Part shown: in pieces, positions 21,891-55,231 of the stretch
Numbering within the stretch: position 1 is the first letter of the stretch
Layout: each line of letters starts with the position of its first letter
Assembly: GCA_016933955.1 (NCBI GenBank)
Contig: JAFGTT010000028.1
Span: 1 to 64,000 of the forward strand
Length of the DNA stretch: 64,000 nucleotides
From: Candidatus Zixiibacteriota bacterium
Lineage (GTDB): Bacteria > Zixibacteria > MSB-5A5 > GN15 > PGXB01
Direction of reading: 5' to 3'
Made by a program: the position numbers and the translations under genes
The notes under the pieces: generated by a model
Databases searched by the model: none
The model's input: the letters and a program-made list of their open reading frames with translations, nothing else
What the model was told of the DNA's origin: nothing

Positions 21891-21900
21891 GGTGAGAGAT

Positions 21901-29958: not shown

Positions 29959-29965
29959 AGCGTTT

Positions 29966-31120: not shown

Positions 31121-34100
31121 ATGCTAATCCAGTTTGACAATTTGAAAAGCTCCTTCAAACGCATTCGGTCAGGAATGCGCGGATCGATTTTCCTGCTGGC
31201 AAGCATGATGCTGTTAAGCACAAGCCTGTTTGGACAGGTGCAGATTTCCGGCGATATCACCGCCCATATGGACAGTGTTATCAACCTGGCCATCGGTGAT
31301 ACCCCTCAGGATCTCTATGCGGCACCGAGCGCCGCCCAGGAAACCACCTGGCGGGGAATTATCCAGGACATTCTGGATGGCGACTATGTTTCGGCCCATT
31401 CCGGGGCCGGGACGCTCGATTATCGGGTGGTCGAATTCACCGATGTATCATCAAAAGTATTCTATATTCTCGAAAGAACTCCCTCGGCAACATCGAATTT
31501 CTGGGGGACTTTTGTTTTCAATCCCGAACCGCGCCGGCCCAATCTGGTAATTCAATGCCCGCATCCGGTCCAGAATCTCAATACCGGTAATCAAGGCTTT
31601 CGGGTTTTCACGGTGGCCAATGCCCTGGCTTTTTTTGTCGCCGGGACTCATAAATGCAACACAACCACCTTCTCGCCCTGCAGTGGTACTTCGACGTCAT
31701 GTTCGGTCGATCCGGAATCGTACCGCAGTTGCGATCAGGCGCATATCGTTAACGGGACCTTTCAATTTACCACCGAGGAGCTGCTGGATTATGATTCCGA
31801 ATTGATTTTTATCCAGCCCCATGGTTATACCCCTGAAACCGGGGAACCGGATATCGTTATAAGTAACGGTACAAAATTTTATCCGGCAGTTGATTATCTT
31901 CCCGACCTGAGAGATAATCTATACAATATCGATAACAGCCTGACTTTCAAAATCGCTCATATCGATGACTGGGGTAATGACATCGGACAGACCAACGTCC
32001 AGGGCCGCCTGATCAACAATACCGGTGATCCCTGTGCGGACAATGCTACCTCTACAACCGGCCAATTCATACACCTGGAACAGAAATATGCCGGTCTTCG
32101 CGATACGGAAAACAACTGGTACAAGCTGGCGAACGCCATTGTTTTGACTTTTCCCCTTGAGAATGGTCAGGTTACTTCGGCCCAATCCGGTTCCTGGAAT
32201 GATAATGCCACCTGGGAAGGCGGTCAAATTCCGACCTCGGATGATGATGTTTTAATCGCGGCCGGGCATACTATCACGGTTGATGATCTTACCGCCGAGT
32301 GCCATTCCGTTTTGTTCGGAGACACTTCGTCGCACATTGATATGGATGCCAGCAGCCGTTTGAGTGTATATGGTGACTTTACGCTCTTTAATGAACTCCA
32401 TAATGTTTTTTCGGCCGGCTGGTCGGCTACCGATGCCAAAATTTATTTCACCGGCTTTGAGCCCCTTCAGACTCTGAGTGGCTGGAGTACCACCGGCGGT
32501 TCGACTTCATTCCGCGATGTCGTTATCGACAAATCGTCGGGGAAAGTCGTTACCGGCGGGACCGGTATGCGTCTGGGTGTTCAGAACAGCCTGGAAGTAC
32601 TCAGCGGGACGCTGGAACTGTCGGCCGATGATGATCTCGAAGCGCGCTGGGCATCCAGCGGTCTGCTCACCGGAAACCAGAACCTGACCATTGATATTAC
32701 GGCCGATGGTCATTTCCTTCTGTTCGACGGCGATGGGACCCATTTTATCCGCAGTGATACGGGGTCGGTTCCGATCGGCAAGATGACCGTATATGGCGAG
32801 GTGCAGTTGTACGATGCCAGTTCTTATGATATAAACATAAACAATGTCGATGTTAAAAGCGGCGGAATTCTGGAGCTGGGAACCGGCCTCGGCAGTACTA
32901 CCTACGGCCCGGAATTCAATCCCGGTACTATTACCGTCGAATCCGGTGGTGAAATTCTCAACCAGAGCTCGACCGACATCTGGTTCGATACCTCATCCGT
33001 CATCTTGAATACCGGGGCCACCTATAAAACGGCCAGCAGTACGACAATTTATCCTCCGACCTTTGTTAACAACGGCAAGGTGCGGTACCAGAGAGATCCC
33101 GCGGTGGAAACCAACGACCAGATTGTAGTTGACACCAATTATTATGATATTGAATTAAGTTTCAACGGTAACGGCACCAAAAAGGCATGGAGCTTTCTTG
33201 GCGATCGGAGTGTCAATGACAGCCTGACTATTAATAATGATGCCGAACTGCTTCTAACCGCTGATGATGAACAGACTCTTACGGTAAACAATACTATCCG
33301 TCTGACCAGCGGTTCGATCGACAACAGCGACCCTGATATTACCCTGGCGGTTGGCGATGGCGCACTCATTTCCCGTGCCACCGGGACTTTGGCCGAGGCG
33401 CCGACATTTATGGGCGGGGTCGATGTCCGTTATACCAGTACGACCGCCTCGGTCACCACCGGTCCGGAACTGCCGACTTCATCATCGGCCCTGAACAGCC
33501 TGACCATATATTCCACCGACCAGACAGTAACGTTGGGCAGCGATATTGTGGTCAATGAAACGCTAACACTGTCTACGGGGACATTCGATAACGATGGTGT
33601 CGATGACGATTTTTCAATGACAATGGCCGAGGGATCGACCGTCCGGCGGGCGGCGGCGGAACTCACCACTGCTCCTATTTTCGACAACAGCGTTAATGTC
33701 GAATATATCAGCAATTATTACCATGTTTCGACGGGATATGAAATCCCGACTGCCTCCGGTATCCTTAAGGACTTTACCATCAGTGGTGATCACGGAGTGA
33801 CATTATCACATAATATGACCGTTAACAGGACGATGACTATCAGCGGCAGCGCCCTTAACACCGAGAGCTACACCGTGACCCTGGCTTCCGGGGTAAGCCT
33901 AGTGGAGGAAAATGGTTTTACCGTGCGCGGTAATCTGACCACAACGCGTACTCTGAGTCAGTCGGTCAACAATAATCTCGGTGGTATCGGAGTGGAAATC
34001 AATGCCACCGGCGGCGCTCCCGGCGCCACAACCGTTTTGCGGGTTACCGACGATCCCCCTAGCATCGGCTCGGTTCAGGGTATTTCCCGCTATTTTGATA

Positions 34101-36736
34101 TTACCCCGGCCAACAACAGCGGTCTTAATGCTACCATGGTTTTCCATTATTCGGAGAGCGAGCTCAACGGTATTATGGAAAATACTCTGACCCTCTACTC
34201 CTCGACCGATGGTGGGGCCACCTGGACTCCCCGCGGGGGAACCCGTGACGAAACGGCCAACACCCTGACTCTTTCCGGAATCAGTTCTTTTTCCCGCTGG
34301 ACCGCGGGCGGCAGTCTGGGGGAACAGCTTGTCTCGGTTCAATCCGGTTCCTGGACCGACCCGGCCACCTGGCAGGGAGAAGTCATACCCGGAGCGGAGG
34401 ATGATGTTATGATTCTGGCGGGCCATACCATTTCGGTCGATGATAATCTGGCCCAGTGCCATTCTCTGAGTTTCGGTGGTAATGATGCCCTGATCGATAT
34501 GAACGCCTTCAGCCGCCTCGATATTTACGGCGATTTCACTCTTTTCGATCGCACTCATAATGTTTTTTCAGCCGGATGGTCCGCCGACAGCGCTTTTGTT
34601 CGTTTTGTCGGCAGTGAACCGACCCAAACTCTGGCCAATTTCAGCACTACCGGGGCCTCAACTTCTTTCCGCGATCTTATTATCGAAAAGGATAGCGGGA
34701 CGGTCGTAACGACTCTCGGAGATTCCCTGCGGTTAGGAATCCAGAACAGCCTTGAAATTATCAGTGGAACGCTGGAACTGGCTCCGGGTGCCGATCTGGA
34801 GGCCCGCTGGGCCTCAAGCGGAAACCTGACCGGTAACCAGGATCTCAACATTATGATTCATCCCGGCGGGAAATTTATTCTGGTTGACGGTGACGGGACC
34901 CATTTCATTCGAAGCGGAGCCGGCTCTCTTCCCGTTGGGAAAATGACTATTTACGGCGAGGCCGAGTTCTATGATGCCAGTTCCTACGATATCAGTATTG
35001 GTGGAATTGATGTCAAAGATGGCGGAACGCTGAAACTCGGGACCAATCTGGGCAGCAGCACGTACGGGCCGGAGTTCAATCCCGGAACCATCACCATTGA
35101 CTCCGGTGGATCGATGTACGGAGTGACAACCACCAACATCTGGTTCGATACCACCATTGTTATTCTTAATCGCGGCGGTACCTATAAAACATCCAGTTCC
35201 ACTACTGTTTTCCCGCCGACCTTCATCAATAACGGTAAGGTTCGTTACCAGCGTGATCCCGAAACCGAAACCACCGATCAGGTGATTGTGGACACTAATT
35301 ATTACGATATCGAATTTAGTTTCAATGGCAACGACACCAAAAAAATCTGGACCCTTGCCGATGACCGAACCGTTGACGACAGCATGACGATAAATAATGA
35401 TGCTGAATTTATCCTTGAGGCAACATCACCATATACCGTGACCGTTAACGGACTTTTGAGATTAACCAGCGGATTGATTAACAACAGCGATGCCGATGCC
35501 ACTCTTGTTTTGGCCGATGGTGTCTGGATTTCACGGGCAACCGGACAGATTTCCAATACCCCGAATTTTCTCGGAAATATCAATGTCCGTTATACCAGTA
35601 CCGAAACATCTGTGACAACCGGACCAGAACTCCCGACCGGTTCCACGGTCTTGAATGATTTAACCATCTATTCCACTGATCAAACGGTTACACTTGGGGC
35701 CAATGCCACGGTCAACAATGAGCTCACTCTTTCGACCGGTGTTTTCGACAACAACGGCAGTGCCGACAATCTGACCCTGACGCTGGCCGATGGTTCGACA
35801 ATCCGCCGGGCCACCGGGGAACTGACAGCGGCGCCGGTTTTTGCCGATCAGGTCGATGTCGAATATATCAGCACCGTGGGAGCGGTGACCACCGGTCCGG
35901 AATTGCCTTTTTCTCCAACCGTCCTGAACGACCTGACCATCAGCGGCAATATGGGTGTTACCCTCGGAGCCGATGTGACTGTCAATGGCACTCTGGCTTT
36001 GAATGACAGTATTCTTTCGACCGGGACGTACACGGCCACACTCGGAAACAGCGCCGGTATCATCGAGACTTCGGGCTATGTGGTCCAGGGTAAGGTTGCA
36101 ACCACCAGAACTCTGAACCAGGCGGTTAACGAGTCATTCGGTGGCCTGGGTATTGAAATTAACGCCTCCGGCGGCGCTCCGGGTGCCACCGCTGTCCTTC
36201 GGACAGCCGGAACAGCGCCGACTATTTCAGGGGCCACCGGGGTGAGTCGTTATTTCGATGTGACCCCGACGAACAACAGCGGACTCAATGCCACCGTGAA
36301 ATTGCATTACCATGAAAGCGAGTTGAACGGTGCCGCTGAAAATACCCTGGCCGCCTATTCATCCAGCAACGGTGGAACGAGCTGGACATCGCTTGGAGGA
36401 ACGGTCGATACAGCTGCCAATACCGTGACAGTCGATGGAATCGGCAGTTTCGACCGCCTTGGCCTTGGCGGTACTTCCGCGGGTTGCGACTGCAATCCCG
36501 GAGAGGCCAACAACAGCGGCTCGATCAACATTCTGGATGCCACCTATATCATCAACTACCTTTACAAGAGCGGTCCGGCTCCGAAGCCATACGCCAAATG
36601 TTCCGGAGACGCCAACTGCAACTGTGCTGTCAATATTCTGGATGCCACGTTTTTGATCAATTATCTCTATAAAAGCGGACCGGCACCGTGCGATTGCGCA
36701 ACCTGGTCCGGGAGTTGCGGAACGCCGCAGAAATAG
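31121..36736 (+). CDS. Giant modular secreted protein: hydrolase-like head, two beta-helix modules, dockerin
   Basis: This 1871-residue protein starts after AGAGGAGG with a signal peptide (about 1-39). Residues 40-345 form a head domain with conserved QCPHP, AGTHKCN, SDQ/CDQAH, QPHG and ISNGT motifs that could bind metal. Two long beta-rich modules follow (about 350-1065 and 1070-1785), each opening with a WxDxATWxGGxxP-type motif and ending with an NNSGLNAT domain. A C-terminal dockerin-like pair (about 1790-1860, SINILDATYIINYLYKSGP) closes the protein. It is the sum of the next two genes' domains with the module doubled. Likely surface-attached by cohesin; substrate unknown. Confidence 0.75.
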   Translation: MLIQFDNLKSSFKRIRSGMRGSIFLLASMMLLSTSLFGQVQISGDITAHMDSVINLAIGDTPQDLYAAPSAAQETTWRGIIQDILDGDYVSAHSGAGTLDYRVVEFTDVSSKVFYILERTPSATSNFWGTFVFNPEPRRPNLVIQCPHPVQNLNTGNQGFRVFTVANALAFFVAGTHKCNTTTFSPCSGTSTSCSVDPESYRSCDQAHIVNGTFQFTTEELLDYDSELIFIQPHGYTPETGEPDIVISNGTKFYPAVDYLPDLRDNLYNIDNSLTFKIAHIDDWGNDIGQTNVQGRLINNTGDPCADNATSTTGQFIHLEQKYAGLRDTENNWYKLANAIVLTFPLENGQVTSAQSGSWNDNATWEGGQIPTSDDDVLIAAGHTITVDDLTAECHSVLFGDTSSHIDMDASSRLSVYGDFTLFNELHNVFSAGWSATDAKIYFTGFEPLQTLSGWSTTGGSTSFRDVVIDKSSGKVVTGGTGMRLGVQNSLEVLSGTLELSADDDLEARWASSGLLTGNQNLTIDITADGHFLLFDGDGTHFIRSDTGSVPIGKMTVYGEVQLYDASSYDININNVDVKSGGILELGTGLGSTTYGPEFNPGTITVESGGEILNQSSTDIWFDTSSVILNTGATYKTASSTTIYPPTFVNNGKVRYQRDPAVETNDQIVVDTNYYDIELSFNGNGTKKAWSFLGDRSVNDSLTINNDAELLLTADDEQTLTVNNTIRLTSGSIDNSDPDITLAVGDGALISRATGTLAEAPTFMGGVDVRYTSTTASVTTGPELPTSSSALNSLTIYSTDQTVTLGSDIVVNETLTLSTGTFDNDGVDDDFSMTMAEGSTVRRAAAELTTAPIFDNSVNVEYISNYYHVSTGYEIPTASGILKDFTISGDHGVTLSHNMTVNRTMTISGSALNTESYTVTLASGVSLVEENGFTVRGNLTTTRTLSQSVNNNLGGIGVEINATGGAPGATTVLRVTDDPPSIGSVQGISRYFDITPANNSGLNATMVFHYSESELNGIMENTLTLYSSTDGGATWTPRGGTRDETANTLTLSGISSFSRWTAGGSLGEQLVSVQSGSWTDPATWQGEVIPGAEDDVMILAGHTISVDDNLAQCHSLSFGGNDALIDMNAFSRLDIYGDFTLFDRTHNVFSAGWSADSAFVRFVGSEPTQTLANFSTTGASTSFRDLIIEKDSGTVVTTLGDSLRLGIQNSLEIISGTLELAPGADLEARWASSGNLTGNQDLNIMIHPGGKFILVDGDGTHFIRSGAGSLPVGKMTIYGEAEFYDASSYDISIGGIDVKDGGTLKLGTNLGSSTYGPEFNPGTITIDSGGSMYGVTTTNIWFDTTIVILNRGGTYKTSSSTTVFPPTFINNGKVRYQRDPETETTDQVIVDTNYYDIEFSFNGNDTKKIWTLADDRTVDDSMTINNDAEFILEATSPYTVTVNGLLRLTSGLINNSDADATLVLADGVWISRATGQISNTPNFLGNINVRYTSTETSVTTGPELPTGSTVLNDLTIYSTDQTVTLGANATVNNELTLSTGVFDNNGSADNLTLTLADGSTIRRATGELTAAPVFADQVDVEYISTVGAVTTGPELPFSPTVLNDLTISGNMGVTLGADVTVNGTLALNDSILSTGTYTATLGNSAGIIETSGYVVQGKVATTRTLNQAVNESFGGLGIEINASGGAPGATAVLRTAGTAPTISGATGVSRYFDVTPTNNSGLNATVKLHYHESELNGAAENTLAAYSSSNGGTSWTSLGGTVDTAANTVTVDGIGSFDRLGLGGTSAGCDCNPGEANNSGSINILDATYIINYLYKSGPAPKPYAKCSGDANCNCAVNILDATFLINYLYKSGPAPCDCATWSGSCGTPQK
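31230..32160 (+). repeat. Head-domain copy 1
   Basis: This stretch encodes the same domain as 36885-37830. Shared motifs include GDITxHxDS, ILERTPxxTSxxWGTxVFNP, QGFRVF, FVAGxHxCN, QPHGxxxxxGxPDIxxSNGT and RDTExNWxKLxNAxxxTFP. Confidence 0.8.
32170..34320 (+). repeat. Beta-helix module copy A (about 2150 bases)
   Basis: It opens with AQSGSWNDNATWEGG and ends near SFSRWTAGG. It is closely related to copies B (34330-36475) and C (38319-40190), with fixed landmarks HNVFSAGWSA, DLEARWASSG, GNGT/GDGTHFIRS, STYGPEFNPGTI and IWFDT. Copies A and B contain two VxYxSxxxxVxTGPELPT sub-repeats. Confidence 0.85.
34330..36475 (+). repeat. Beta-helix module copy B (about 2150 bases)
   Basis: It opens with VQSGSWTDPATWQGE and ends near SFDRLGLGG, in tandem with copy A inside the same gene. 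It has the same sub-repeat number as A. Confidence 0.85.
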
Positions 36737-36784: not shown

Positions 36785-36833
36785 ATTGCCGGATAAAGAA
36801 GGGATAATTAACATAAAGCCCCGGGTGGTAAAA

Positions 36834-38081
36834 ATGAAAGTGAACCTTTTGCTGTTAATTGCAATCATTATCATGACCGTTAATTCTAACGCTCAGGTAA
36901 TCACAAGCGGTGATATTACCGTTCATATCGACAGCATCATAAACGAAATACCGGGGGCGACTCCGGAAGGATTGTATCTGCAACCGGGTGCATCGTCTCG
37001 TGCGTTATGGCGCGGCGTTATCCAGGGAATCTTATCCGGTGATTATGCGGCCGCCAATATGCAGGCGTCCGGAATAAATTACCAGGTGGTTCAATTCACT
37101 GATAATTCGGTTACACCGGCGAAGGTTTATTACATTCTTGAAAGAACTCCGGAATCAACCTCCCGGTACTGGGGTACATACGTTTTCAATCCGGCCCCTG
37201 CCCGCAGTAAACTCGTTATTCAATGCCCCCACCCCAAATATGATCGGAATACCGGCAAGCAGGGTTTCAGAGTTTTTTATCAGGCCGGGGCCAGGGCTTA
37301 CTTTGTGGCGGGAATTCATCGTTGCAACGGTATAACATTTAGCTCGTGTGATGGAACAACGACTGCCTGTTCCGAGGAATCCGAGGCGTATCGATATTCA
37401 GATCAGCCCCATGTGGTTCTGGGGACTTTTCAGATCACAACCGAGGAAATGCTGGCGGTAATTCCGGATATGATAGTCGTTCAGCCTCATGGTTTTTCAC
37501 AGGATAGCGGGGATCCGGATATTATTATGAGTAACGGGACATATTTTACGCCGGAGATCGATTATCTTTTGAATCTTCGGGATAATCTTCTTACCCAGGA
37601 CGCTTCGTTGACTTTTAAAGTGGCTCATATTGACCTTGAATGGACCAAATTGGTAGCCAGAACCAATACCCAGGGACGGTTGATCAATAACAGCCCCGAT
37701 CCATGCGGAACCTACGCCACCTCGGTAACCGGCCGATTCCTTCATCTGGAACAGACATACAGCGGGTTACGCGATACCGAAGCCAACTGGCAGAAACTAG
37801 TTAATGCCGTCATCATGACTTTTCCCGATGACTGCGGGTGTTATCCCGGAGATGCTAACAACAGCGGTGCTGTTAATATTCTGGATGCCACCTATATAAT
37901 TAATTACCTGTATCGGGGGGGCTTACCTCCGAGTCCATATGCCACCTGTTCCGGTGATGCCAATTGTAATGGTGGTGTCAACATTATGGATGCGACCTAT
38001 CTGATAAATTACCTTTATAAAAATGGTCCCGCTCCATGTTCTTGTCTGATATGGACGGCGGATTATGGTGCACCATATTGA
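36834..38081 (+). CDS. Secreted head-domain protein with dockerin
   Basis: From the ATG at 36834 the protein has 415 residues: a signal peptide ending near NSNAQ (about 1-21), the head domain (about 22-340) and a dockerin-like pair (about 345-405, AVNILDATYIINYLYRGG). An ATG-less extension upstream lacks a signal. The head keeps QCPHP, AGIHRCN, SDQPH, QPHGF and MSNGT, spaced as in the giant protein. Repeated His and an HG dipeptide suggest a zinc amidohydrolase fold, which would fit poly-glutamate cleavage next door, but no family was firmly recognised. Confidence 0.75.
   Translation: MKVNLLLLIAIIIMTVNSNAQVITSGDITVHIDSIINEIPGATPEGLYLQPGASSRALWRGVIQGILSGDYAAANMQASGINYQVVQFTDNSVTPAKVYYILERTPESTSRYWGTYVFNPAPARSKLVIQCPHPKYDRNTGKQGFRVFYQAGARAYFVAGIHRCNGITFSSCDGTTTACSEESEAYRYSDQPHVVLGTFQITTEEMLAVIPDMIVVQPHGFSQDSGDPDIIMSNGTYFTPEIDYLLNLRDNLLTQDASLTFKVAHIDLEWTKLVARTNTQGRLINNSPDPCGTYATSVTGRFLHLEQTYSGLRDTEANWQKLVNAVIMTFPDDCGCYPGDANNSGAVNILDATYIINYLYRGGLPPSPYATCSGDANCNGGVNIMDATYLINYLYKNGPAPCSCLIWTADYGAPY
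36885..37830 (+). repeat. Head-domain copy 2
   Basis: This is the counterpart of 31230-32160; it is carried here as a free-standing domain joined directly to a dockerin. Confidence 0.8.
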
Positions 38082-38252
38082 GGATCGGTCCGGATAATGG
38101 TTATGAAAATGATTGCATATACTCAAATAGAGCGGTTTCTCCGATGTTATTCCGTTCCGGCAGGATCGCCGCAAGAATTTTGTACATACACAATTCGGTT
38201 CAATAGGATATAAATTATTACGTGTCACAATTTGTAGCATAGGAGGTCTTTG

Positions 38253-40757
38253 ATGAAGGGCTTTGTGTTAACTGGTGTTTTAATCCTGGCGCTTTGCAGC
38301 AATGTTGCCTTGGCCCAGATTAATTCCGCACAGTCCGGTCCCTGGCAGGACCTAACTACCTGGGACGGGGGAGTTGTACCGTCCTCGTTCGATGATGTAG
38401 TCATTTCATCCGGCCATACCGTCTCGGTCGATGATGAATTCCCGGAATGTCATTCACTGTCTTTTGCCGACAATACGGCTTTGATTGATATGAATGCGGG
38501 CGGGATTTTGAATGTATACGGGGATTTCACTCTGGCCGCCGCCGACCACAATGTCTTTTCAGCCGGGTGGTCGGCCAGCGGCGCCTATATCAGGTTTACC
38601 GGTAGTGAACCGGTGCAAACCCTGAGCGGTTGGAACACCGGAGGAGGCTCGACTTCTTTCCGCGATATGATTATCGATAAGGAAGCAGGGACAAAAGTCG
38701 TTACCGCGGGAAGTGGGATGCGTTTCTGCCTGCAGAACAGCCTTGAGATTATCAGCGGTATTCTGGAAATCAGTCCGGATGATGATCTTGAAGCCCGCTG
38801 GGCAAGCAGTGGTAATCTGACCGGTAATCAGAATCTGGAAATCACCATTCAACCAGATGGCGAGTTTCTTTTGATTGATGGCAATGGAACCCATTTCATC
38901 CGCAGTAATACCAGCTCGGTACCGATCGGAAAAATGACTATTTACGGCCGGGCGGAGTTCTATGATGCCAGTTCATACGATATCAGTATTGCCGGTATTG
39001 ATGTTAAAGATGGCGGAACACTGCATATCGGAACCTATCTTGGCAGTTCCACTTACGGACCCGAATTCAATCCCGGTACTATAAATGTCGAAGACGGCGG
39101 CACGCTGTACAATGTTACCACTACCGACATCTGGTTCGATACGACCATCGTTAATCTCAATGAAGGCGGCGAGTATCGTACCATAAGTTCCTCAACCGTT
39201 TTTCCGCCGACCTTTAACAACAACGGCAAGGTCCGTTATATGCGCAATTCTTCGGGCTCCGATCAGGAGGTAGTCGATACCGACTATTACGGGGTGGAAT
39301 TCAGTTACAGCGAGGGCAGTACCCGCAAGCTCTGGACCCTGACCGATGATCGCAACGTGTTAGACAGCCTTACCACCAATAACAGCGCCGAATTATTGCT
39401 GGCGGCCGATAACCCACATACGCTAACTGTCGAGGGGACAGTCCGTATGACCAGCGGCCTGATTGATAACAGCGATTCGGAAGTTTCCCTGGCCGTATCC
39501 GACGGAACTCTCATCTCCCGCGCGACCGGCCAGATAGCTGTGGCGCCGGTGTTTCTCGGAGGTGTTAACCTGCGTTATACCAGCTCTGTCGAAGCGGTCG
39601 TTGCCGGACCAGAAATGCCGACCGATCCCGGAGTTCTTGATAATTTATCCATTGCCAGTGACCAGGGCGTGGCTCTTTCCCATGATATAGCTGCCAATGG
39701 TAATGTGGTGCTTGAGGATGGCCCGTTAATGACGGACACCTATACCCTGACTCTTGGGCCCGATGCCGCACTCGACGAGACAGCCGGCTTTATTGTCCTG
39801 GGAAATGCAGTTGCGACCCGAACTCTGGATCAGGCTGTTAGTGAATCATTCGGCAATCTGGGGCTGAAAATCGAGGCGCTCGATACTGCTCCCGGAGAAA
39901 CAACGGTACGCCGTGTTACCGGAACACCTCTTATGATTGATGATATTCCGGGAATTGCAAGGTATTTCGATATCAACCCGACCAATAATACCGGACTTAA
40001 TGCCACCCTGGTGATTCATTATAACGATGATGAATTGAATGGCATTCCCGAAGCGCTGCTGGCCGGGTACGCCTCTGATGACGGCGGTTCCAGCTGGAAT
40101 CTGTATAACGGAACGGTTGATCTTTCCGCCAATACTTTCACTCTCGAGGGTCTGGGTTCCATGTCGCTCTGGACTCTCGGGCGCGATACCGTCACCGCGG
40201 ACAATATCCTGATTGTCAAACCGGATCCAATGTTTGCCTTTATGGAATATCCCTACGGTAACCTTGCGGCCATATTCTATCTCGGCGGCGAATTCGCCGG
40301 GGGCGATCATGGGGTCGGGGAAATTGATCCCGCCTCCGTCCGGGTTAACGGCCTGACTCCGCTGGCGGTTACGATTATCTCCTCTTATCCCGGTTTTGCC
40401 AGCGATGTCCTTGAAATAGAACTGGATATAAGAGCCTTTATCGATGGCTATCCGTTGTTGTGGGATGTTTCGGATCAGACCTATACCATAACCGGGAGTT
40501 TCAGCGGCGGCGGTGATTTTGACGAGTCGGCCGGGGTGCAAATGATCGGTCATAAATCCGGCGATGCTAATTTTGATTATCGTGTCAATATCCTTGATGC
40601 TACTCATCTGATAAACTACCTCTATCGGGGAGCGGAACCTCCTCAACCGATTGTTGGAACCGGCGATACCAATGGCGATGGAAACATCAACATCCTGGAT
40701 GTGACCCGATTAATTAATTACCTGTACAGCGGCGGTCCGGCGCCGACTCACCCGTAA
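38253..40757 (+). CDS. Secreted beta-helix module protein with dockerin
   Basis: The start is ATG 38253, six bases after AGGAGG, giving 834 residues. A signal peptide (about 1-21, NVALAQ) is followed by one beta-helix module (about 22-645), a short Ig-like region (VKPDPMFAFMEYPYG...) and a dockerin-like pair (about 770-830, VNILDATHLINYLYRG and INILDVTRLINYLYSG). The module aligns with both copies in the giant protein but has one VxYxSxxxxVxxGPEMPT sub-repeat where they have two. Probable surface scaffold or adhesin. Confidence 0.78.
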   Translation: MKGFVLTGVLILALCSNVALAQINSAQSGPWQDLTTWDGGVVPSSFDDVVISSGHTVSVDDEFPECHSLSFADNTALIDMNAGGILNVYGDFTLAAADHNVFSAGWSASGAYIRFTGSEPVQTLSGWNTGGGSTSFRDMIIDKEAGTKVVTAGSGMRFCLQNSLEIISGILEISPDDDLEARWASSGNLTGNQNLEITIQPDGEFLLIDGNGTHFIRSNTSSVPIGKMTIYGRAEFYDASSYDISIAGIDVKDGGTLHIGTYLGSSTYGPEFNPGTINVEDGGTLYNVTTTDIWFDTTIVNLNEGGEYRTISSSTVFPPTFNNNGKVRYMRNSSGSDQEVVDTDYYGVEFSYSEGSTRKLWTLTDDRNVLDSLTTNNSAELLLAADNPHTLTVEGTVRMTSGLIDNSDSEVSLAVSDGTLISRATGQIAVAPVFLGGVNLRYTSSVEAVVAGPEMPTDPGVLDNLSIASDQGVALSHDIAANGNVVLEDGPLMTDTYTLTLGPDAALDETAGFIVLGNAVATRTLDQAVSESFGNLGLKIEALDTAPGETTVRRVTGTPLMIDDIPGIARYFDINPTNNTGLNATLVIHYNDDELNGIPEALLAGYASDDGGSSWNLYNGTVDLSANTFTLEGLGSMSLWTLGRDTVTADNILIVKPDPMFAFMEYPYGNLAAIFYLGGEFAGGDHGVGEIDPASVRVNGLTPLAVTIISSYPGFASDVLEIELDIRAFIDGYPLLWDVSDQTYTITGSFSGGGDFDESAGVQMIGHKSGDANFDYRVNILDATHLINYLYRGAEPPQPIVGTGDTNGDGNINILDVTRLINYLYSGGPAPTHP
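38319..40190 (+). repeat. Beta-helix module copy C (about 1870 bases)
   Basis: It shares the landmarks of copies A and B and is shorter by about 280 bases, matching the loss of one roughly 90-residue sub-repeat. Confidence 0.85.
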
Positions 40758-40805
40758 ATATTCCGGCAATTTTACGGGCACGGCGTGGATTTTTGTCGCA
40801 ATAAG

Positions 40806-40831
40806 GGTCCGGTTTTGACCGGACCTTTTTT
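40806..40831 (+). terminator. Intrinsic terminator after the modular secreted genes
   Basis: GGTCCGGT-TTTG-ACCGGACC is a perfect 8-base-pair stem followed by six Ts, 48 bases after the stop codon. Confidence 0.88.
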
Positions 40832-40900
40832 ACAAGTGCGTTTGGGGCGTTAAAGACTTATAATAAGATGAAAATGTTGAAAATGTCATGGAGCAATGTG

Positions 40901-41926
40901 ATGAAAATATCTTTTTCACGAATCCTGCAGTTTCTATTCATTATGCCGCTAATACTGTTCGGCCTGTCATGTTCCCACGGGAATAAAGTCCATGACAATC
41001 TCCAGGACCGCCTTGCGAAATTCCATCAGAAAGACAAAGTCACCATCATTTTGACCGATTCCGGTCTGGGCGGGCTTTCGGTAGCCGCCGATATTGAACA
41101 TAGACTCCGGGATTATGGCCTTTTTGGTGAGGTCAGTATGGTATATTTCAATGCTCTGCCGGACGAAAGCCGCCCGTACAACGGCATGAGCAGTACCGCC
41201 GAAAAGGTAATTACCTTTAACTCCGCTCTCAACAGTATGGCCACAAATTATCATCCCGATTTAATCCTGATCGCCTGCAATACTCTTTCGGTTATCTACG
41301 CGCAAACTGAATTCTCGCGACAGATGGAGATTCCGGTGGTCGATATAGTTAAATTCGGAGTTGATTTAATTTATGATAAATTAAAAAATGACAGCGGTGG
41401 TGTCGCAGTTATCCTTGGTACTCCAACTACGATCGGCCAGGATACGCACCGGAGGCTTTTAATTGCCAGGGGTATTGACTCTACCAAAATTTTGACCCAG
41501 GGTTGCGATATGCTGGAAAGCGAAATTCAGGTCGATCCGAAAAGCGATATGGTTTCGGCCATGATCGAAATGTATGCCAGCGAGGTGCTGGAATCCATTT
41601 CTCGAACGGACCGGAACAGGTTGTATGTAGGTTTGTGTTGCACTCATTATGGTTATACCCGGGAAATCTTCCAGCAGGTTTTTGAACGGACCTGGGGCGG
41701 GACAGTCGAAGCTCTCGATCCCAATAGTATCATGAGTGGATTTTTATTCGATGATAAGTATAATAATCGCCATGATAATACCGCCATAACGGTTACGGTG
41801 GTATCTCAGGCCCGATTGAACCAGGATGAGATAGCCTCAATCGGAGTCATGATCCGGCCGGTTTCTCCAGCCACCGCCGAGGCGCTGATCAATTATGTTT
41901 ATAATCCAAACCTGTTTAAATTCTGA
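40901..41926 (+). CDS. Exported lipoprotein of the glutamate/aspartate racemase family
   Basis: The start is taken as ATG 40901, 7 bases after GGAG; ATG 40868 is an alternative. The signal peptide ends in a lipobox (LFGLSC), so the protein should be lipid-anchored outside the cytoplasm. The body matches glutamate racemase: DSGLGGLSV with the catalytic Asp, ACNTLS with the first Cys (C126) and CCTHYG with the second Cys (C247) and His. MurI itself is cytoplasmic and has no such signal. Both catalytic cysteines being kept suggests activity. The neighbouring poly-glutamate cluster makes D/L-glutamate interconversion outside the cell a plausible role. Confidence 0.82.
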   Translation: MKISFSRILQFLFIMPLILFGLSCSHGNKVHDNLQDRLAKFHQKDKVTIILTDSGLGGLSVAADIEHRLRDYGLFGEVSMVYFNALPDESRPYNGMSSTAEKVITFNSALNSMATNYHPDLILIACNTLSVIYAQTEFSRQMEIPVVDIVKFGVDLIYDKLKNDSGGVAVILGTPTTIGQDTHRRLLIARGIDSTKILTQGCDMLESEIQVDPKSDMVSAMIEMYASEVLESISRTDRNRLYVGLCCTHYGYTREIFQQVFERTWGGTVEALDPNSIMSGFLFDDKYNNRHDNTAITVTVVSQARLNQDEIASIGVMIRPVSPATAEALINYVYNPNLFKF

Positions 41927-41959
41927 CGAATATTTACGCAGTCAAATTATCCAATTAAA

Positions 41960-41988
41960 AGAGGGCCGATCATTCGGCCCTCTTTTTG
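41960..41988. terminator. Bidirectional intrinsic terminator
   Basis: AGAGGGCCGA-TCAT-TCGGCCCTCT is a perfect 10-base-pair stem with Ts on both outer flanks (TTTTG on plus, TTTTAATT on minus). It serves the convergent racemase-like gene and the metalloprotease gene. Confidence 0.9.
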
Positions 41989-42009
41989 TTCGATTCGTGA
42001 ATCCCGATA

Positions 42010-45000
42010 CTATTTCTGAAGAATCATTTTCTTTGAACTGGTGTAATCACCGGCTGTCAGGCGATAGAAATAGATTCCGCTGGCCACCTGCGATCCGGCG
42101 TAATCGGTCCCATCCCAGCGGACATTATGATGTCCCGCCGGCTGAATATCGTCGACCAGACTCCTGACCCGTTGGCCAAGGACATTGTATATATCCAGGT
42201 TGACCGGGGCCGCCACCGGAAGATCATAGCTGATTATGGTCGCAGGGTTGAAAGGATTGGGATAGTTATCATGCAGGCGAAATTGGGCGGGAACCAGATG
42301 GCTGTAAACCGTATAATCGGGCTGGTACCGTCCGGTGGCCCGTATAATAAAATCGCGAACGATTGAATTGTCGGACAGGTTTTCCACCTTAAAGCTCAGT
42401 TCAATTAGATCGCCCTTTTCAAGAACGACAGCTTCCGAACCATCGAATCCGGTCCGGATTTTGGCCGATGGATTGACGGTTTGCATACGGAAATCCGACG
42501 CTTCGTATTCCCGAATAACGGCTTTTTCATCGGCCGGAATATATTGCCGGATTTCATCGGTTGCAAACCGGCCATTCCAGGAAATCCGAACCGTCAGGTT
42601 TGCAGTTTCCTCCCCGGGCTGGATATCGCTCATAATATAAGCCGCACCGGGATTGGTTCGGAAGGGGATATCCGGTAATGTTACCCAGTTTCCGGATGAC
42701 GTCAACCGTTCGACCATCAGAGTGTTAGGGATTTCTTCCGCCGCTATTTTACGGGTCGGGTTGTCATACAGGCAGGGTGGCTTTTGGGGTGAGGAAAAGC
42801 TCAGGCCGGTATTCGATCCCGAAGCAGGAAAAGTCACCATCAGATAACCGGACTGATCCGCATGGAACAAAATATTATCCGCGGCCGTGACCGCCTCGGT
42901 CCAGTCTTTTCCATCCTGATCGATCACCGAAATTGGTTCCGAGGATGACCGGAAGGTGAAGATTTGGCCATCAACGGTACATCCGGCTCTTGTCATGCCA
43001 TCGTGATCGACAGTGATCAATTCCAGGTTATCGAGATATGTGATTTCATCTTCCAACTCGCGGAGCTGAAAAACAACCCGACCGTCACGCGGTACCACCG
43101 GTTTGGTTACAAGGTAATAATCGGTTACAATATCAGAATATCCGGATAACTCACAAGCTGTCAAAAGCGGGTTCTCTTCCACAAACGAAGTCCCGTCGTA
43201 GCTGTACAGCACCGGACAGGACGGTGGGGGAGCGGCCAGAACCACGATATGTCGTACTTCCGACCAGGACCCGACGCCGCAGTTGTTCCCGGCCGCAACC
43301 CGCCAATAATAGGTTCCGTCTCCAAGTTGAATAGGGATAGTATAAGCGGTGTCGGTGATATAATAGGCCGAAACAATCGGTGAACTGAAATCGCTGTCGT
43401 TGTCCAGTTGGTACCAGTACAGGAATGCAGTCGGCACCGATAATATACGCAGGGTCGGCTGAGCCGGCTCATCGAGTGTTTTTCCATCCACCGGAGCATA
43501 CAGGATCGGGGCCGGAGGCTGTCCGAAATTTTCGGTTACCAGCAGATTGCTGCCGGTGGGATGGATGGTGGCTATATCAATACTTCCCTCACCATCGAAA
43601 TCGGCCGATACGATTCCTGCCGCATCGGCGGCAACCGAAATATTTTCGGCATCGGAAAATGTCCCATCGCCGATATTAAGAAAGACGGAGATAGTACCGA
43701 CCGTCCGATTGGCAGTTATCAGATCCATGTCACCATCACCATCCCAGTCGGCGGCGGCGATGCCCGTGGGACCGGAGTCGGTATCGTATAAGACTCTCGC
43801 CCCCATGATTCCAATACCCATGTTCATAAGAACCGATATAGTGTTGGCGTTCTTGTTCGAAACAGCCAGATCCAGATCGCCGTCAAGATCCAAATCAGCG
43901 GCCACCAGATCGGTTGGATTGGCAGGTACCGGGAAGTAATCCTCGGCGAAAGTTCCGTCATCTTTACTCAGCAGAACAGCCACCGTGAAGGCTTCGGAAT
44001 GGGTTGCAATAATGTCGGGAATACCATCATTACTGATATCGGCGCATTTGACCGCCGAAGGTAAACGGCGCTGAGAATAGGGCTCAGTGTAACTGAAAGT
44101 CCCGCTCCCGGAATTGTATACCACCCCAAGGTGATGTCCCGAGGTACCGCCGGTGTTATATCCCACCGCCAGGTCGATAACACCATCGTTATTGAAATCG
44201 GCCGGATAACATTTCCAGGGCGCTATTGGCATGATGGAATGAGTCTGATCGGGGAAATCACCATAACCATCGTTGTGGTAAACCGATATGGTACCGTTCA
44301 GATAATTGGTGGTAACCAGATCGAGATCACCGTCGCCGTCAAAATCGGCTGTTTGAATATCGGATGGCCCGCTGCCGCTGATACATGAAATTATCGATGA
44401 ATTTGTGAATAGTCCCGTCCCATCATTGAATGAAACCGTGATTTTATTTGAGGCGGTGTTGTACGAGGCGATATCAAAAGTACCATCGCCATCGAAATCG
44501 GCTGTGATAAAATCGTCAGGCGGATAGAGCAGAATTTGAGGCGGGCCGGGAATGAAATCGGCATAGCCGCAGGAGGTAGTGGCAATCGACCAGTCAAACC
44601 CGAGTCCGTCGACAAGAGGTTCGCCTGTCGAGGTTTCGATATCCGGGGTAAGGGTCACGGTGATTAGATCACCGGGGGCGAATTCCTCTCCGGGTACGAA
44701 AGCGGCGATTTTAAATTCCGAATTATAATACAAAGTTCCATCAATCGGCCCGGTCAAATTACTGCGAACCAAAAACGAAGCGGTTGTTACAGTGGTCGAA
44801 TCCATGCTTTCATCGAAGGTAACGGTGATAACACTGCTGAGAGGAACATCCACGGCATTCCGTTCCGGATAGACGCTCATGAACACCAGCCTGGGGGCAT
44901 CCATCCCGTGGGCGCCAAAACCGGCCGCAATTTCGGCGTAATGCGGGGTGCCGTTGCCCAGGTTACCGTCGTCATCATCAAGGGTAAGAAAATCGATCGT

Positions 45001-46617
45001 GATTTCGGGATTGATTTCTATTCCGACATGGACCAGGATACTGTTGATGGTAAGATCGGCTATGATATCTCGATAAGTATCCGGTTCGGTGATAGCCAAC
45101 TCGTTTCTGGTATCCCAGATACAGCCAGAAAGTAATTGTCCGCAATAATGAATTTCTCCTTCGCAGGGATACTGGAAATCATTATCGGCCGTCCTGCTGG
45201 CGGAATTGCAGTCACCATAGAAGCCGAGACCAAGTTCCGGCATATCGGAATAAAGCACCGCCATGCAATCGCCCATGCCTTCATGGTAAGCGCATTGTGA
45301 GGTATTTCCGGACATTAAAACGATGTAGTGTCCGTATTCGTGCTGAATAATTGGCTGAAAAGCCGCGTTGGAGCAACCCTCACCGGCGCGCCCCAGTATG
45401 ATCGACATGGTCTGACCGTTGAAGGCGGCCTGGCAGCTGAACTCGGCGTTGACATTGAGCAAAAAGCCTGTCTGATCATGGACACCCGGATATAATGGGT
45501 TGGCCTGCATCACCAGATCGCGGATTTCATTGGCATAGTAATAGGCGTTAACCTGGGCTCGTTCGAATTCATCGCCATTAGTTTCATTATGTATGAAATT
45601 CACCGGACCCGGCGGGCTGACGGAAGTGGTGATGGACGCTTCGCCGCCGGCCAGATTATCCATGACAAAATACTGACCCTGAAGCGAGGATGTTACATTA
45701 ACCGGAGTGCTGCCATTGTGGGGAAAAATAAAATCGCCGTTCTGATCGGTGAAAACCGAATCGGCCCCGATTTTAATCTTGGCATAGGGAATGCCCACCG
45801 GCGATTCATCATTACAAATATCAGCGGCATTGGGTTCGGTGGCCATGCCCTGCACCGAGCCGGTTATATCAATATCGAAAATGAGACTTTGTTTGGACAA
45901 AACCTCTGACGTGACAGGATCGACAATAAAATGATAGGCCCCACCATCATCGGCCCGGCCGATGAATTCGACGGCGGTCCGCGGAATTTCCGGGGCACCA
46001 TCCCGTCCGGCCCAGACGACCACAGCCTGGCGTCCAAAATCGGTCAATCCGGGTTCGGCCGCCCGCGCGGCCGCCTCGGCTTCCGTCCATGATTTTCCGG
46101 CCAAGCTCGGATCGGCCTTAAAATCGCCGAGATCCCGAAGCGATGAGGAAGCCAGAACGATTGGACAGCCAGGTTCATTGCGAACCAGCAGTTTTAATTC
46201 GGAACCGTACACCGGAATACCATCCTGATATTGTGTGTAATAAATCAGGGAAAATTTGAACCGGTCTTCCTCAGGCAAATACATCACCGGTTGCATTCGT
46301 AAACTGGGATTGCGGCGGCTTCCGGGAACAAGATTATTCGACCGGACTCCCCATATTTCCGAATATTCGGCGATAAAATTCTCCGCCGCCTTTTCCGGGC
46401 TCTTTCCGGTGCCCAATGGGGCTCCATACAGACGTGTTATGCAGCCATCCCGATTATATATTTTGGCCCCCGGGTTATCACTTTTAAACTGTTCGAGTAT
46501 GACCGCCCGGTTGTTGACTTCCGCATTTGCCGGAATGCCGTCGAAGGTCCCTAAAATAACCAATACGGCCAGTGTGACAGCGAGCATTGTCCTTTTCCAT
46601 CTGACATATGATTGCAT
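42010..46617 (-). CDS. Secreted M36 (fungalysin)-like metalloprotease with FG-GAP repeats and sorting tail
   Basis: This 1535-residue protein has a signal peptide (about 1-32), an FTP/PepSY-like propeptide (about 35-250) and a metallopeptidase domain with the zinc site H426-E-x-x-H430 and third ligand E446 followed by D450 (HEGMGD). A Big/SbsA Ig-like domain (about 580-690), FG-GAP repeats (about 700-1040, cores DFDGDGDLDL), a fibronectin-like segment (about 1045-1130) and a C-terminal sorting tail (about 1450-1535, NYPNPFNPATIISYDL) follow. The start follows GGAGGACAG. It probably acts on the cell surface or is released. Its zinc ligands are intact. Confidence 0.87.
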   Translation of the reverse strand: MQSYVRWKRTMLAVTLAVLVILGTFDGIPANAEVNNRAVILEQFKSDNPGAKIYNRDGCITRLYGAPLGTGKSPEKAAENFIAEYSEIWGVRSNNLVPGSRRNPSLRMQPVMYLPEEDRFKFSLIYYTQYQDGIPVYGSELKLLVRNEPGCPIVLASSSLRDLGDFKADPSLAGKSWTEAEAAARAAEPGLTDFGRQAVVVWAGRDGAPEIPRTAVEFIGRADDGGAYHFIVDPVTSEVLSKQSLIFDIDITGSVQGMATEPNAADICNDESPVGIPYAKIKIGADSVFTDQNGDFIFPHNGSTPVNVTSSLQGQYFVMDNLAGGEASITTSVSPPGPVNFIHNETNGDEFERAQVNAYYYANEIRDLVMQANPLYPGVHDQTGFLLNVNAEFSCQAAFNGQTMSIILGRAGEGCSNAAFQPIIQHEYGHYIVLMSGNTSQCAYHEGMGDCMAVLYSDMPELGLGFYGDCNSASRTADNDFQYPCEGEIHYCGQLLSGCIWDTRNELAITEPDTYRDIIADLTINSILVHVGIEINPEITIDFLTLDDDDGNLGNGTPHYAEIAAGFGAHGMDAPRLVFMSVYPERNAVDVPLSSVITVTFDESMDSTTVTTASFLVRSNLTGPIDGTLYYNSEFKIAAFVPGEEFAPGDLITVTLTPDIETSTGEPLVDGLGFDWSIATTSCGYADFIPGPPQILLYPPDDFITADFDGDGTFDIASYNTASNKITVSFNDGTGLFTNSSIISCISGSGPSDIQTADFDGDGDLDLVTTNYLNGTISVYHNDGYGDFPDQTHSIMPIAPWKCYPADFNNDGVIDLAVGYNTGGTSGHHLGVVYNSGSGTFSYTEPYSQRRLPSAVKCADISNDGIPDIIATHSEAFTVAVLLSKDDGTFAEDYFPVPANPTDLVAADLDLDGDLDLAVSNKNANTISVLMNMGIGIMGARVLYDTDSGPTGIAAADWDGDGDMDLITANRTVGTISVFLNIGDGTFSDAENISVAADAAGIVSADFDGEGSIDIATIHPTGSNLLVTENFGQPPAPILYAPVDGKTLDEPAQPTLRILSVPTAFLYWYQLDNDSDFSSPIVSAYYITDTAYTIPIQLGDGTYYWRVAAGNNCGVGSWSEVRHIVVLAAPPPSCPVLYSYDGTSFVEENPLLTACELSGYSDIVTDYYLVTKPVVPRDGRVVFQLRELEDEITYLDNLELITVDHDGMTRAGCTVDGQIFTFRSSSEPISVIDQDGKDWTEAVTAADNILFHADQSGYLMVTFPASGSNTGLSFSSPQKPPCLYDNPTRKIAAEEIPNTLMVERLTSSGNWVTLPDIPFRTNPGAAYIMSDIQPGEETANLTVRISWNGRFATDEIRQYIPADEKAVIREYEASDFRMQTVNPSAKIRTGFDGSEAVVLEKGDLIELSFKVENLSDNSIVRDFIIRATGRYQPDYTVYSHLVPAQFRLHDNYPNPFNPATIISYDLPVAAPVNLDIYNVLGQRVRSLVDDIQPAGHHNVRWDGTDYAGSQVASGIYFYRLTAGDYTSSKKMILQK

Positions 46618-47990: not shown

Positions 47991-49311
47991 ATGAATCTGG
48001 ATAAAGATAAAAAAAGGAATAGGAAATTCCGACCCCCATCCCTCGATGCCAAAGCCCTGCAGGCCGCTCGCAATGCTCTTTCCGGAAAAAACAGGACGGA
48101 TTGATAAAAAGGCTTCTACCCTTCATGGGCCCCGCCTTTATCGCCAGTGTCGCCTATGTTGATCCCGGGAATTTCGCTACCAATATTCAGGCCGGATCGA
48201 AATATGGATATACTCTTCTCTGGGTCATTGTCGCCAGCAATATGATGGCCATGTTGATTCAGGCCTTGTCAGCCATACTGGGCATCGCCACCGGTTTGAA
48301 TCTGGCTGAACAATGCCGCCGGCATTTTGCCCGTCCGATTGTCTGGACTATGTGGGTAATAATGGAGCTGGTTGCCATTTCGACCGATCTGGCCGAATTC
48401 CTCGGAGCCGCTTTGGGATTAAACCTGCTTCTGGGAATACCGCTTCTTACCGGGGCAATTCTTACAGCAATTGCCACTTTCTTGATTTTGGGATTGGAAC
48501 GCTACGGTTTCCGTCCACTTGAGGCGGTTATCACAGCCATGGTCGGTGTTATTGCCGTCTGCTACCTGATTGAAACGGTCTTGGATCGACCCGATTGGGG
48601 ACAGGTTATAACAGGAGCTGTGATTCCGGGATTCGGGGGATCGGATGGTGTCTTGTTGGCTACCGGCATTCTCGGGGCCACGGTTATGCTTCATGTCATA
48701 TTTCTTCATTCAGCCCTGACCCAGAGACGAATTATTGTCCGTAATCCGGCCAAGCTGAAACGTCTTTTTCACTTTGAATTAGCTGATGTTTTCATCGCCA
48801 TGGGAATTGCCGGACTTGTCAATATGGCGATGCTGATTATGGCGGCCGCCACTTTTCACAGACAGGGCATGACCGAGGTCGGGACTATTGAAGCCGCGCA
48901 CCTGACTCTTCAACCCCTGCTCGGGAAGGCCGCCGGATGGGTATTCGGCATATCTTTGCTGGCCGCAGGGCTATCATCATCGACTGTCGGTACCAGTGCC
49001 GGTCAGGTTGTTATGCAAGGTTTTTTACATCGCCATATCCCTATCTGGATACGTCGATTAGTGACAATTATTCCCTCGATAATCGTGATTGCCATGGCCT
49101 TCGATCCCACCAGGACTCTTGTTATCAGCCAGGTGGTTTTAAGCTTTGGATTACCGTTTGCCGTCATTCCGCTGATTATTATCACCCGGCGCAAAGATAT
49201 AATGGGCGGTCTGGTGAATCGTTCCCTGACAACATATGCTGTAAGTTTAATTGCGCCCTGATCGCAGCTTTGAATTTGTATTTAATATGCCAGACTATGT
49301 TTTCGGGATGA
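47991..49311 (+). pseudogene. mntH: NRAMP metal transporter (MntH family) with two apparent frameshifts
   Basis: The core frame at 48101-49261 encodes an NRAMP transporter: LLPFMGPAFIASVAYVDPGNFATNI (metal-binding DPGN in helix 1) and later NMAMLIMAAATF in helix 6. Its N-terminal cytoplasmic extension (LDAKALQAARNALSGKN) lies in another frame, 47991-48104. Its last helix (ALIAALNLYLICQ) lies in a third segment ending at 49311. Each join needs one extra base, near 48101 and near 49245; one missing G at each would explain both. The restored protein would have about 440 residues, normal for the family. The next gene's ATG overlaps the restored stop, supporting the long form. Imports Mn or Fe. 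Confidence 0.75.
48101..49261 (+). CDS. mntH: NRAMP transporter core reading frame
   Basis: This is the uninterrupted 386-codon part of the gene, opening at a TTG that overlaps the stop of the upstream frame (TTGA). It covers transmembrane helices 1 to about 10 including both metal-binding motifs. If the sequence is correct as given, translation would depend on reinitiation at this TTG and would lack the last helix. Confidence 0.75.
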   Translation: MIKRLLPFMGPAFIASVAYVDPGNFATNIQAGSKYGYTLLWVIVASNMMAMLIQALSAILGIATGLNLAEQCRRHFARPIVWTMWVIMELVAISTDLAEFLGAALGLNLLLGIPLLTGAILTAIATFLILGLERYGFRPLEAVITAMVGVIAVCYLIETVLDRPDWGQVITGAVIPGFGGSDGVLLATGILGATVMLHVIFLHSALTQRRIIVRNPAKLKRLFHFELADVFIAMGIAGLVNMAMLIMAAATFHRQGMTEVGTIEAAHLTLQPLLGKAAGWVFGISLLAAGLSSSTVGTSAGQVVMQGFLHRHIPIWIRRLVTIIPSIIVIAMAFDPTRTLVISQVVLSFGLPFAVIPLIIITRRKDIMGGLVNRSLTTYAVSLIAP

Positions 49312-50225
49312 AATTTATGATAAATCATATCCTCGTTCCCCTCGATGGATCTCCTCTGGCAGAATCTTCGCTGCCGATGGCGGCTTTCCTCGCGCAGGTG
49401 TTTGCCGCCAGGGTGACCCTGGTACATATAATTGAAAAAAACCCGCCCGAAGAAATTCATGGCCAGCCGCATTTGAAAAATGCCGATGAAGCCTTTGAAT
49501 ATCTGGATACTATTAGCCGTCGTTTTTTTTCTGATAAGACGATTATCGAAAGTCATGTTCATACCGAGGAAACCACGGAAATTTCGGCGGGAATCTCTGA
49601 TCATGTCGGCGAACTGCATTCCGATCTGATCGTAATGTGCACCCATGGACGGGGCGGACTGCGAGATCTGGTCTTTGGAAACAATGCTCAGCAGGTTATC
49701 TCAATGGGCAAGACTCCGGTAGTGGTGATTCCTCAGCCGGAGGATATTGACAATGATGTTGTAATCAGGCGGATTCTTGTGCCGCTTGACGGCCAGCCAG
49801 AACATGAGCAGGGTTTGTCTCTGGCAGCGGAATTCGCTCTGGCCTGCAAGGCCTCTCTGCACCTGTTGACGATTGTCCCCACCTTCGATACTCTGCCGGG
49901 CAAATGGAGTTCAACCGGACGCCTTCTTCCGGGAACGACCGACCGAATGCTGGATATGTCTGTTTCTCAGGCCATAGAATACCTTGATGAACATCGAAGC
50001 ATTCTGGAAAAGAAAGGTCTGGCGGTGACAATTGATGTTTTCCGCGGTCACCCGGCCGGTATGATAAATAGGGCCGTTGAGACCATGGGGATGAATCTGG
50101 TTGTAATTGGAACTCTTGGCCGAGGCGGAACCAGGGCATTCTGGACCGGCAGTGAGGGCTCCAGAATTTGTTGCCAGTGCCGCCTTCCGATATTGCTTGT
50201 CCCATGGCAGAATGTGAAATCATGA
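49308..50225 (+). CDS. Universal stress protein, two tandem UspA domains
   Basis: The start is ATG 49308 (MKFMINHILVPLDGS), overlapping the restored stop of the NRAMP gene (ATGA); 305 residues. Two UspA domains are visible, each opening with ILVPLDGS/Q. The first has CTHGRGGLRDLVFGNNAQQV and the second GTLGRGGTRAFWTGSEGS, both close to the G-2x-G-9x-G(S/T) ATP-binding signature. Tandem Usp proteins next to transporters are common and are thought to regulate them; this is a family-level inference. Confidence 0.88.
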   Translation: MKFMINHILVPLDGSPLAESSLPMAAFLAQVFAARVTLVHIIEKNPPEEIHGQPHLKNADEAFEYLDTISRRFFSDKTIIESHVHTEETTEISAGISDHVGELHSDLIVMCTHGRGGLRDLVFGNNAQQVISMGKTPVVVIPQPEDIDNDVVIRRILVPLDGQPEHEQGLSLAAEFALACKASLHLLTIVPTFDTLPGKWSSTGRLLPGTTDRMLDMSVSQAIEYLDEHRSILEKKGLAVTIDVFRGHPAGMINRAVETMGMNLVVIGTLGRGGTRAFWTGSEGSRICCQCRLPILLVPWQNVKS

Positions 50226-50504: not shown

Positions 50505-51602
50505 CTATTTAATCCGTTTGGAAAACCGGATCCAGGCCAGCCATAAAATTATTATCCCGAAAATCACCAAGGCAAGTATTTCGGGATAAAGAACCGATAC
50601 TGAAGACGCTTTCATCATAATTCCCCGAACGATAATCATAAAATATCGAAGCGGGTTCAGGTAGGTTAAATACTGGATAGTCCGGGGCATGTTGGCTATG
50701 GGGGTAAAAAAGCCTGAGGTCAGGATCGCGAAGATGGAGAAAAACCAGGCATAAAACATCGCCTGTTGCTGAGTTTTCGATACCGTCGATAAAAACATTC
50801 CCACTCCCAGGGTCGTGAATAGAAACACGAAAGACAGGCTGTAAAGCAACAGCCATGATCCGGCAAATGGTATTTTGAACCAGAGAATTCCGAAAACCAG
50901 CGCCATCGACATTTCGATATATCCCAGAATCGCGAACGGGATAGTTTTACCAAGGATCAGGGCCGGCGATGACAGCGGTGTCACCATAAGTTGCTCCAGA
51001 GTCCCCATCTCGCGTTCTCTAACAATTGCCATCGAGGTTAACATAACGGTGATCATGGTCAGCAGGGTGGCCACTATTCCCGGGATCATGTAATTGACAG
51101 ATTCCATTTCCGGATTGAACAGCACCTTCCTGTTAAAACTGATCGGAAGACTGATTCCGGCGGTTTTTTCTCCAAAGCCGGCCGTTATCATATTGGCGTA
51201 TCCAAGCGCAATCGCCGCCGAATTGGCATTGGTGCCATCAATCATAAATCCAACCGTGGCCGCCCGTCCGGTTTCGAGATTGGCTTCGAAATCCTGTGGA
51301 ATAATTATGGCGGCGCCGAATTGCTTCTCCTTGAATCCGCGCTCGATATCAAGCAAGCTGATATCCGTCCCAAGAACTCTGAAATACCCTCCCGGTGTAA
51401 AGGATCGGATATATTCACGTGAAAATGCCGTACCATCATGGTCGTATAAAGCCAAGTCGATATTCTTTACATCCACATTGACCGCATAACCCAGCAACAG
51501 CAGTTGTATTAGGGGCATAAGAAATATCACCAACAGCATGTTCCGGTCGCGGATGACCTGGTAAAATTCTTTCTTAATCAAAGCCAGAATGGAGCGAATC
51601 AT
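50505..51602 (-). CDS. ABC-2 type permease, YbhR-like
   Basis: This 365-residue permease has one N-terminal helix (about 22-41), a large extracytoplasmic domain, and five C-terminal helices, with the family signatures IKKEFYQVIRDR at the start and REREMGTLEQLMVTPLSS in the cytoplasmic loop. It is last in the efflux operon, 2 bases after its partner permease. Together they export drugs or lipophilic compounds, by analogy with E. coli YbhSR. Confidence 0.88.
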   Translation of the reverse strand: MIRSILALIKKEFYQVIRDRNMLLVIFLMPLIQLLLLGYAVNVDVKNIDLALYDHDGTAFSREYIRSFTPGGYFRVLGTDISLLDIERGFKEKQFGAAIIIPQDFEANLETGRAATVGFMIDGTNANSAAIALGYANMITAGFGEKTAGISLPISFNRKVLFNPEMESVNYMIPGIVATLLTMITVMLTSMAIVREREMGTLEQLMVTPLSSPALILGKTIPFAILGYIEMSMALVFGILWFKIPFAGSWLLLYSLSFVFLFTTLGVGMFLSTVSKTQQQAMFYAWFFSIFAILTSGFFTPIANMPRTIQYLTYLNPLRYFMIIVRGIMMKASSVSVLYPEILALVIFGIIILWLAWIRFSKRIK

Positions 51603-51604
51603 AA

Positions 51605-53442: not shown

Positions 53443-53443
53443 A

Positions 53444-55230: not shown

Positions 55231-55231
55231 C

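Follow-up and report, generated by a model that had tools for sequence, protein, structure and literature searches.

A predicted lipoprotein relative of glutamate racemase accompanies a divergent polyglutamate gene block in Candidatus Zixiibacteriota

A gene for a MurI-related protein with a predicted lipoprotein signal lies at the end of a divergent poly-gamma-glutamate (pgs) gene block in a Candidatus Zixiibacteriota bacterium. Sequence comparison shows kinship with MurI, retained catalytic motifs, a conserved lipobox, a MurI encoded separately in the same cell and an occurrence restricted to genomes with the divergent pgs block. The protein is probably a glutamate racemase of the MurI superfamily that acts outside the cytoplasm, anchored to a membrane and independent of a cofactor, and that participates in a polyglutamate turnover module, a reading in which we place moderate confidence. 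All positions refer to the window, the whole stretch of 64,000 nucleotides that was analysed.

The longest frame of the racemase gene spans positions 40868-41926 on the + strand and encodes 352 amino acids. The start at 40901 (40901-41926, 341 amino acids) is preferred, because a GGAG at 40890-40893 lies 7 nt ahead of this ATG. The earlier note had claimed the presence of all three glutamate racemase motifs (DSGLGG, ACNT and CTH), and these were recovered in the frame, the third reading CCTH where MurI has GCTH. Alignments with the homologues and MurI place DSGLGG at 41057-41074, ACNT with the first catalytic cysteine at 41273-41284, and CCTH with the second catalytic cysteine at 41636-41647 (residues 64-69, 136-139 and 257-260 counted from 40868). 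The alignments confirm the open reading frame as that of a MurI-related protein with racemase-type active-site motifs. Among family models, NCBIfam glut_race TIGR00067 matches best (E=5e-19), with a score of 68.6 bits, far below the cut-off of 146.65; two homologues from the phylum score 61.1 and 58.3 bits, also under this curated cut-off, and the Pfam Asp_Glu_race match to the racemase is likewise sub-threshold. Solved glutamate racemases are matched at about 1e-9 to 1e-11. AlphaFold models of two racemase sequences reached a pLDDT of 51, too poor for a fold search.

Identity of the window protein to MurI is about 21-31%, and the homologues are mutually just 43-51% identical. When aligned to MurI of the phylum, the protein retains Asp-Ser, Cys-Asn-Thr and Cys-Thr-His, but the substrate-loop positions YFGD and PYG are not kept, being replaced by NALPD and PYN in the window protein and by [PT]YN across the homologues. 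The low family score, the altered loop and the limited identity to MurI would suit a protein that has lost glutamate racemase function, either a MurI-related lipoprotein binding glutamate or polyglutamate or an enzyme catalysing a different reaction within the Asp/Glu racemase superfamily. We regard such a loss as quite unlikely: both catalytic cysteines, DSGxGG with its Asp-Ser pair, the Asn-Thr and the histidine of the CTH signature are kept in all three homologues, the G089 protein having CSH in place of CTH.

The N-terminus, MKISFSRILQFLFIMPLILFGLSC, comprises a positive n-region, a strong hydrophobic core and the lipobox LFGLSC, and matches the lipoprotein pattern. The predicted signal peptide and lipobox occupy 40901-40972, with the codon of the lipid-acceptor cysteine at 40970-40972. 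The pattern was assessed by a purpose-written rule in the style of PROSITE PS51257 rather than by SignalP or another trained predictor, and called for a positive n-region, a hydrophobic core and a lipobox with its cysteine within about 35 residues. By this rule the lipoprotein signal claimed in the earlier note is predicted in 3/3 homologues, the window protein among them, against 0/13 MurI controls from the phylum. A lipobox with a hydrophobic stretch arises in 0.035% of shuffles of the window protein N-terminus, and these shuffles together with the MurI controls led us to reject a chance hydrophobic stretch. The corresponding N-terminal stretches of the other two proteins finish with LLILSC and LLVAC; the cysteine does not vary, despite its differing flanks and an otherwise divergent N-terminus. 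The regular expression halted, in the G002 protein, at an earlier cysteine within the hydrophobic stretch, and the aligned cysteine is likelier to be the lipid acceptor. Signal-like hydrophobic N-terminal stretches are also found on most other proteins of the block. The conserved lipobox suggests that the mature racemase is lipid-anchored outside the cytoplasm.

MurI-family glutamate racemases are normally intracellular and supply D-glutamate for the cell wall. A canonical MurI is encoded elsewhere in this genome, on a different contig, and an over-threshold MurI is separately present in each of the three genomes with the lipoprotein racemase. We therefore rejected the window protein as the sole, cell-wall racemase, and the lipoprotein copy is not the cell-wall enzyme.

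A two-sequence profile (E<=1e-20) searched against 132 Candidatus Zixiibacteriota genomes found the lipoprotein racemase in three: the genome of the window (G000), G002 and G089. PgsB scores in the phylum are split: E values lie at about 1e-122 to 1e-135 in 16 genomes and at 1e-73 to 1e-78 in another three; one further genome has a pgsB fragment only. The three genomes with low-scoring, divergent PgsB are exactly those with the lipoprotein racemase, and divergent PgsB occurs in 0/129 others. Treating genomes as independent, which they are not, gives p 2.7e-6 for this co-occurrence. The racemase and pgsB share a contig in all three genomes, at distances of about 11, 15 and 5 kb. In the window, the proximity to a polyglutamate cluster noticed earlier is borne out by pgsB, pgsC and a TIGR04332 gene at 28379-31027. 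The earlier note had proposed a search for lipoprotein racemases near pgsBC, and had named as refutation that such homologues never occur in genomes with pgsBC; in the phylum, 3 of 3 sit in a block with divergent pgsB. The link with pgsBC is stronger than that note could tell, because every homologue found in the phylum shares this block. All of the linkage was seen in three genomes belonging to one phylum, and a single ancestral block may be its source, so that few independent events may lie behind it. No close relative of the racemase was found in viral contigs or in a plasmid collection, the latter yielding only six MurI/RacE-like matches at about 27-28%, and a contig scan with narrow peptide patterns recovered only the relative already known.

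The gene content and order of the block are largely conserved across two families. In the three loci the order is lipoprotein, exported protein, DctM-like permease, AstE/AspA-like protein, DUF6305 protein, gamma-glutamyltranspeptidase (GGT), PgsB, PgsC, TIGR04332 protein, secreted G8/dockerin proteins and racemase; G089 differs in having the racemase placed between two of the secreted proteins, and its copy of the first block gene runs past the stretch read. Between genomes, the racemase has the lowest identity (45-51% in the block comparison) and the permease the highest (77-82%). All block genes of the window are on the + strand. The block opens with a predicted lipoprotein with repeat domains (20007-21890), an exported protein without a Pfam match, 60-63% identical across the block copies (21835-23193), and the DctM-like integral membrane permease (23236-24501). 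Next come an exported metalloenzyme of AstE/AspA-like type that carries HPNE and DLHE motifs (24670-25800), an exported DUF6305 protein (25822-26379) and an exported GGT retaining the motif DGHTTHLSV (26434-28350). PgsB of the divergent clade (28379-29533) carries the nucleotide-binding motif NGTRGKSS and matches TIGR04012 with 262.5 bits against a cut-off of 222.7; it is adjoined by PgsC/CapC (29530-29958; PF14102, E=1e-34) and the TIGR04332 poly-gamma-glutamate system protein (29966-31027). A PgsA/CapA component had no match among the block genes scanned. A histidine kinase and sigma-54 response regulator pair, a possible regulator, lies just 5' of the block on the opposite strand (16692-19644).

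Three secreted proteins separate the TIGR04332 gene from the racemase. The first (31121-36736) combines an unclassified domain of 300 amino acids with G8 and dockerin, the second (36786-38081) has the same unclassified domain with dockerin, and the third (38250-40757), directly 5' of the racemase, has G8 and dockerin. The unclassified domain (31247-32155 and 36906-37823) is present in 2-3 copies per block, bears PH, DQxH, TTEE, QPHG and HLEQ motifs, and is confined within the phylum to the three racemase genomes. It had no sequence match in Pfam, NCBIfam or PDB, and a profile comparison with the AstE/AspA-like protein showed no similarity; AlphaFold models of four of its sequences reached a pLDDT of 35, too poor for a fold search. 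Our guess is that it might be a polyglutamate hydrolase.

The setting of ordinary pgs clusters in the phylum is different. Around 16 ordinary pgsB loci, tblastn of the flanks found pgsC in 16/16 and the TIGR04332 gene in 15/16, and no gene for the racemase, GGT, permease, AstE/AspA-like protein, DUF6305 protein or secreted domain, this absence being weak at three loci, whose contigs measure about 5 kb or less. Two more genes without a convincing Pfam match, common to most of the 16 loci, lie 3' of TIGR04332 in these clusters (e.g. L071:12924-15007). PgsB uses ATP and cytoplasmic glutamate. That the racemase supplies D-glutamate for polymer synthesis, the role proposed for cytosolic Glr of Bacillus, with a signal that does no more than keep it at the membrane close to PgsBC, is in our judgement quite unlikely, since the lipobox would put the mature enzyme beyond the cytoplasmic membrane, away from the pool on which PgsB draws, and the ordinary clusters do without an adjoining racemase. 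In its favour, the racemase is closely linked to pgsB, and a D-containing polymer requires a racemase (PMC4928254).

The racemase gene is flanked by terminator-like hairpins on the + strand, one on its 5' side at 40803-40832 (-19.8 kcal/mol, z -4.4) and one on its 3' side at 41957-41990 (-25.7 kcal/mol, z -7.8). Both were missed by a consensus terminator scan, and were spotted by eye and backed by folding. With hairpins on both sides, the racemase may be transcribed apart from the rest of the block in this genome. The own terminators and the lipobox are compatible with an exported racemase that makes D-glutamate or another D-amino acid for the envelope or for signalling, its linkage to pgs being a by-product of a shared envelope function. 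Periplasmic racemases, BsrF and RacK, are known and are considered to supply the cell wall with D-amino acids (PMC12502697). We nevertheless think an envelope or signalling role unlikely, as the racemase occurs solely with one divergent pgs block and in 0/129 other genomes, which presumably build cell walls too.

Next to the racemase, on the opposite strand and outside the conserved block, 42010-46617 encodes a large secreted protein that has FG-GAP repeats and a type IX-like sorting tail. The region 48101-50225 encodes an MntH-like NRAMP transporter, matching PRK00701 from profile position 30, and then a double universal stress protein. An operon-like group on the - strand (50505-56629) encodes two ABC-2 permeases, two ATPases (RbbA/Drr-like), an HlyD adaptor and a TolC-like outer membrane protein.

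A cofactor-free racemase can in principle function outside the cytoplasm. In the turnover module that we favour, PgsB, PgsC and the TIGR04332 protein would synthesise and export poly-gamma-glutamate, and the exported GGT would free glutamate from the polymer, perhaps with help from the AstE/AspA-like enzyme and from the unclassified secreted domain. The lipoprotein racemase, on a membrane facing the periplasm or the outside, would interconvert D- and L-glutamate, and both forms of the released pool might then be taken up, perhaps via the DctM-like permease, or reused. Catalytic activity, glutamate as the substrate, polymer breakdown, the direction in which racemisation runs and the step of uptake are what we infer here, and D/L equilibration of polymer-released glutamate would be the simplest reading of the racemase role; the enzyme may set the D/L ratio of this glutamate, as the earlier note proposed. 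GGTs are described as exo-hydrolases of poly-gamma-glutamate that liberate glutamate; breakdown is not certain, because members of the family of the CapD type anchor the polymer instead (PMC4928254).

BsrF/BsrV and RacK are PLP enzymes of another fold. The window protein shares with them action outside the cytoplasm, here predicted from sequence, whereas they have broad specificity (PMC12502697) and are not known to sit in pgs clusters. With MurI/RacE (TIGR00067; PDB 1b73, 1zuw) it shares full-length superfamily similarity, the two catalytic cysteines, DSGxGG, ACNT and CTH, but unlike them it is a predicted exported lipoprotein, scores below the family cut-off, has the altered YFGD and PYG loop, is linked to pgs and coexists with a separate MurI. 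Bacillus Glr/RacE is likewise a MurI-family racemase discussed alongside polyglutamate, but is cytosolic, and Bacillus pgsBCA with ggt/capD or pgdS likewise pairs the synthase genes with exported gamma-glutamyl hydrolases of the GGT family or other kinds, whereas no exported racemase, DctM-like permease, AstE/AspA-like or DUF6305 gene is described there (PMC4928254) and the present block has all of these. Both cytosolic MurI-type racemases that have been considered in relation to polyglutamate and periplasmic Bsr/RacK racemases are already known (PMC4928254; PMC12502697), and in the open-access literature we found no paper on an exported, periplasmic or lipoprotein MurI-type glutamate racemase.

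We tentatively suggest, at somewhat short of even chances, that the block represents a second polyglutamate-system architecture, with genes for synthesis, for extracellular release of glutamate and for its stereochemical recycling grouped together and a MurI-type racemase moved outside the cytoplasm for this purpose. If so, a cofactor-independent glutamate racemase would have been recruited outside the cytoplasm, against the expectation that MurI-type enzymes supply D-glutamate intracellularly. The module would explain how a diderm bacterium reuses both mirror forms of glutamate from its own polymer, and would offer a compact gene set for testing glutamate recycling.
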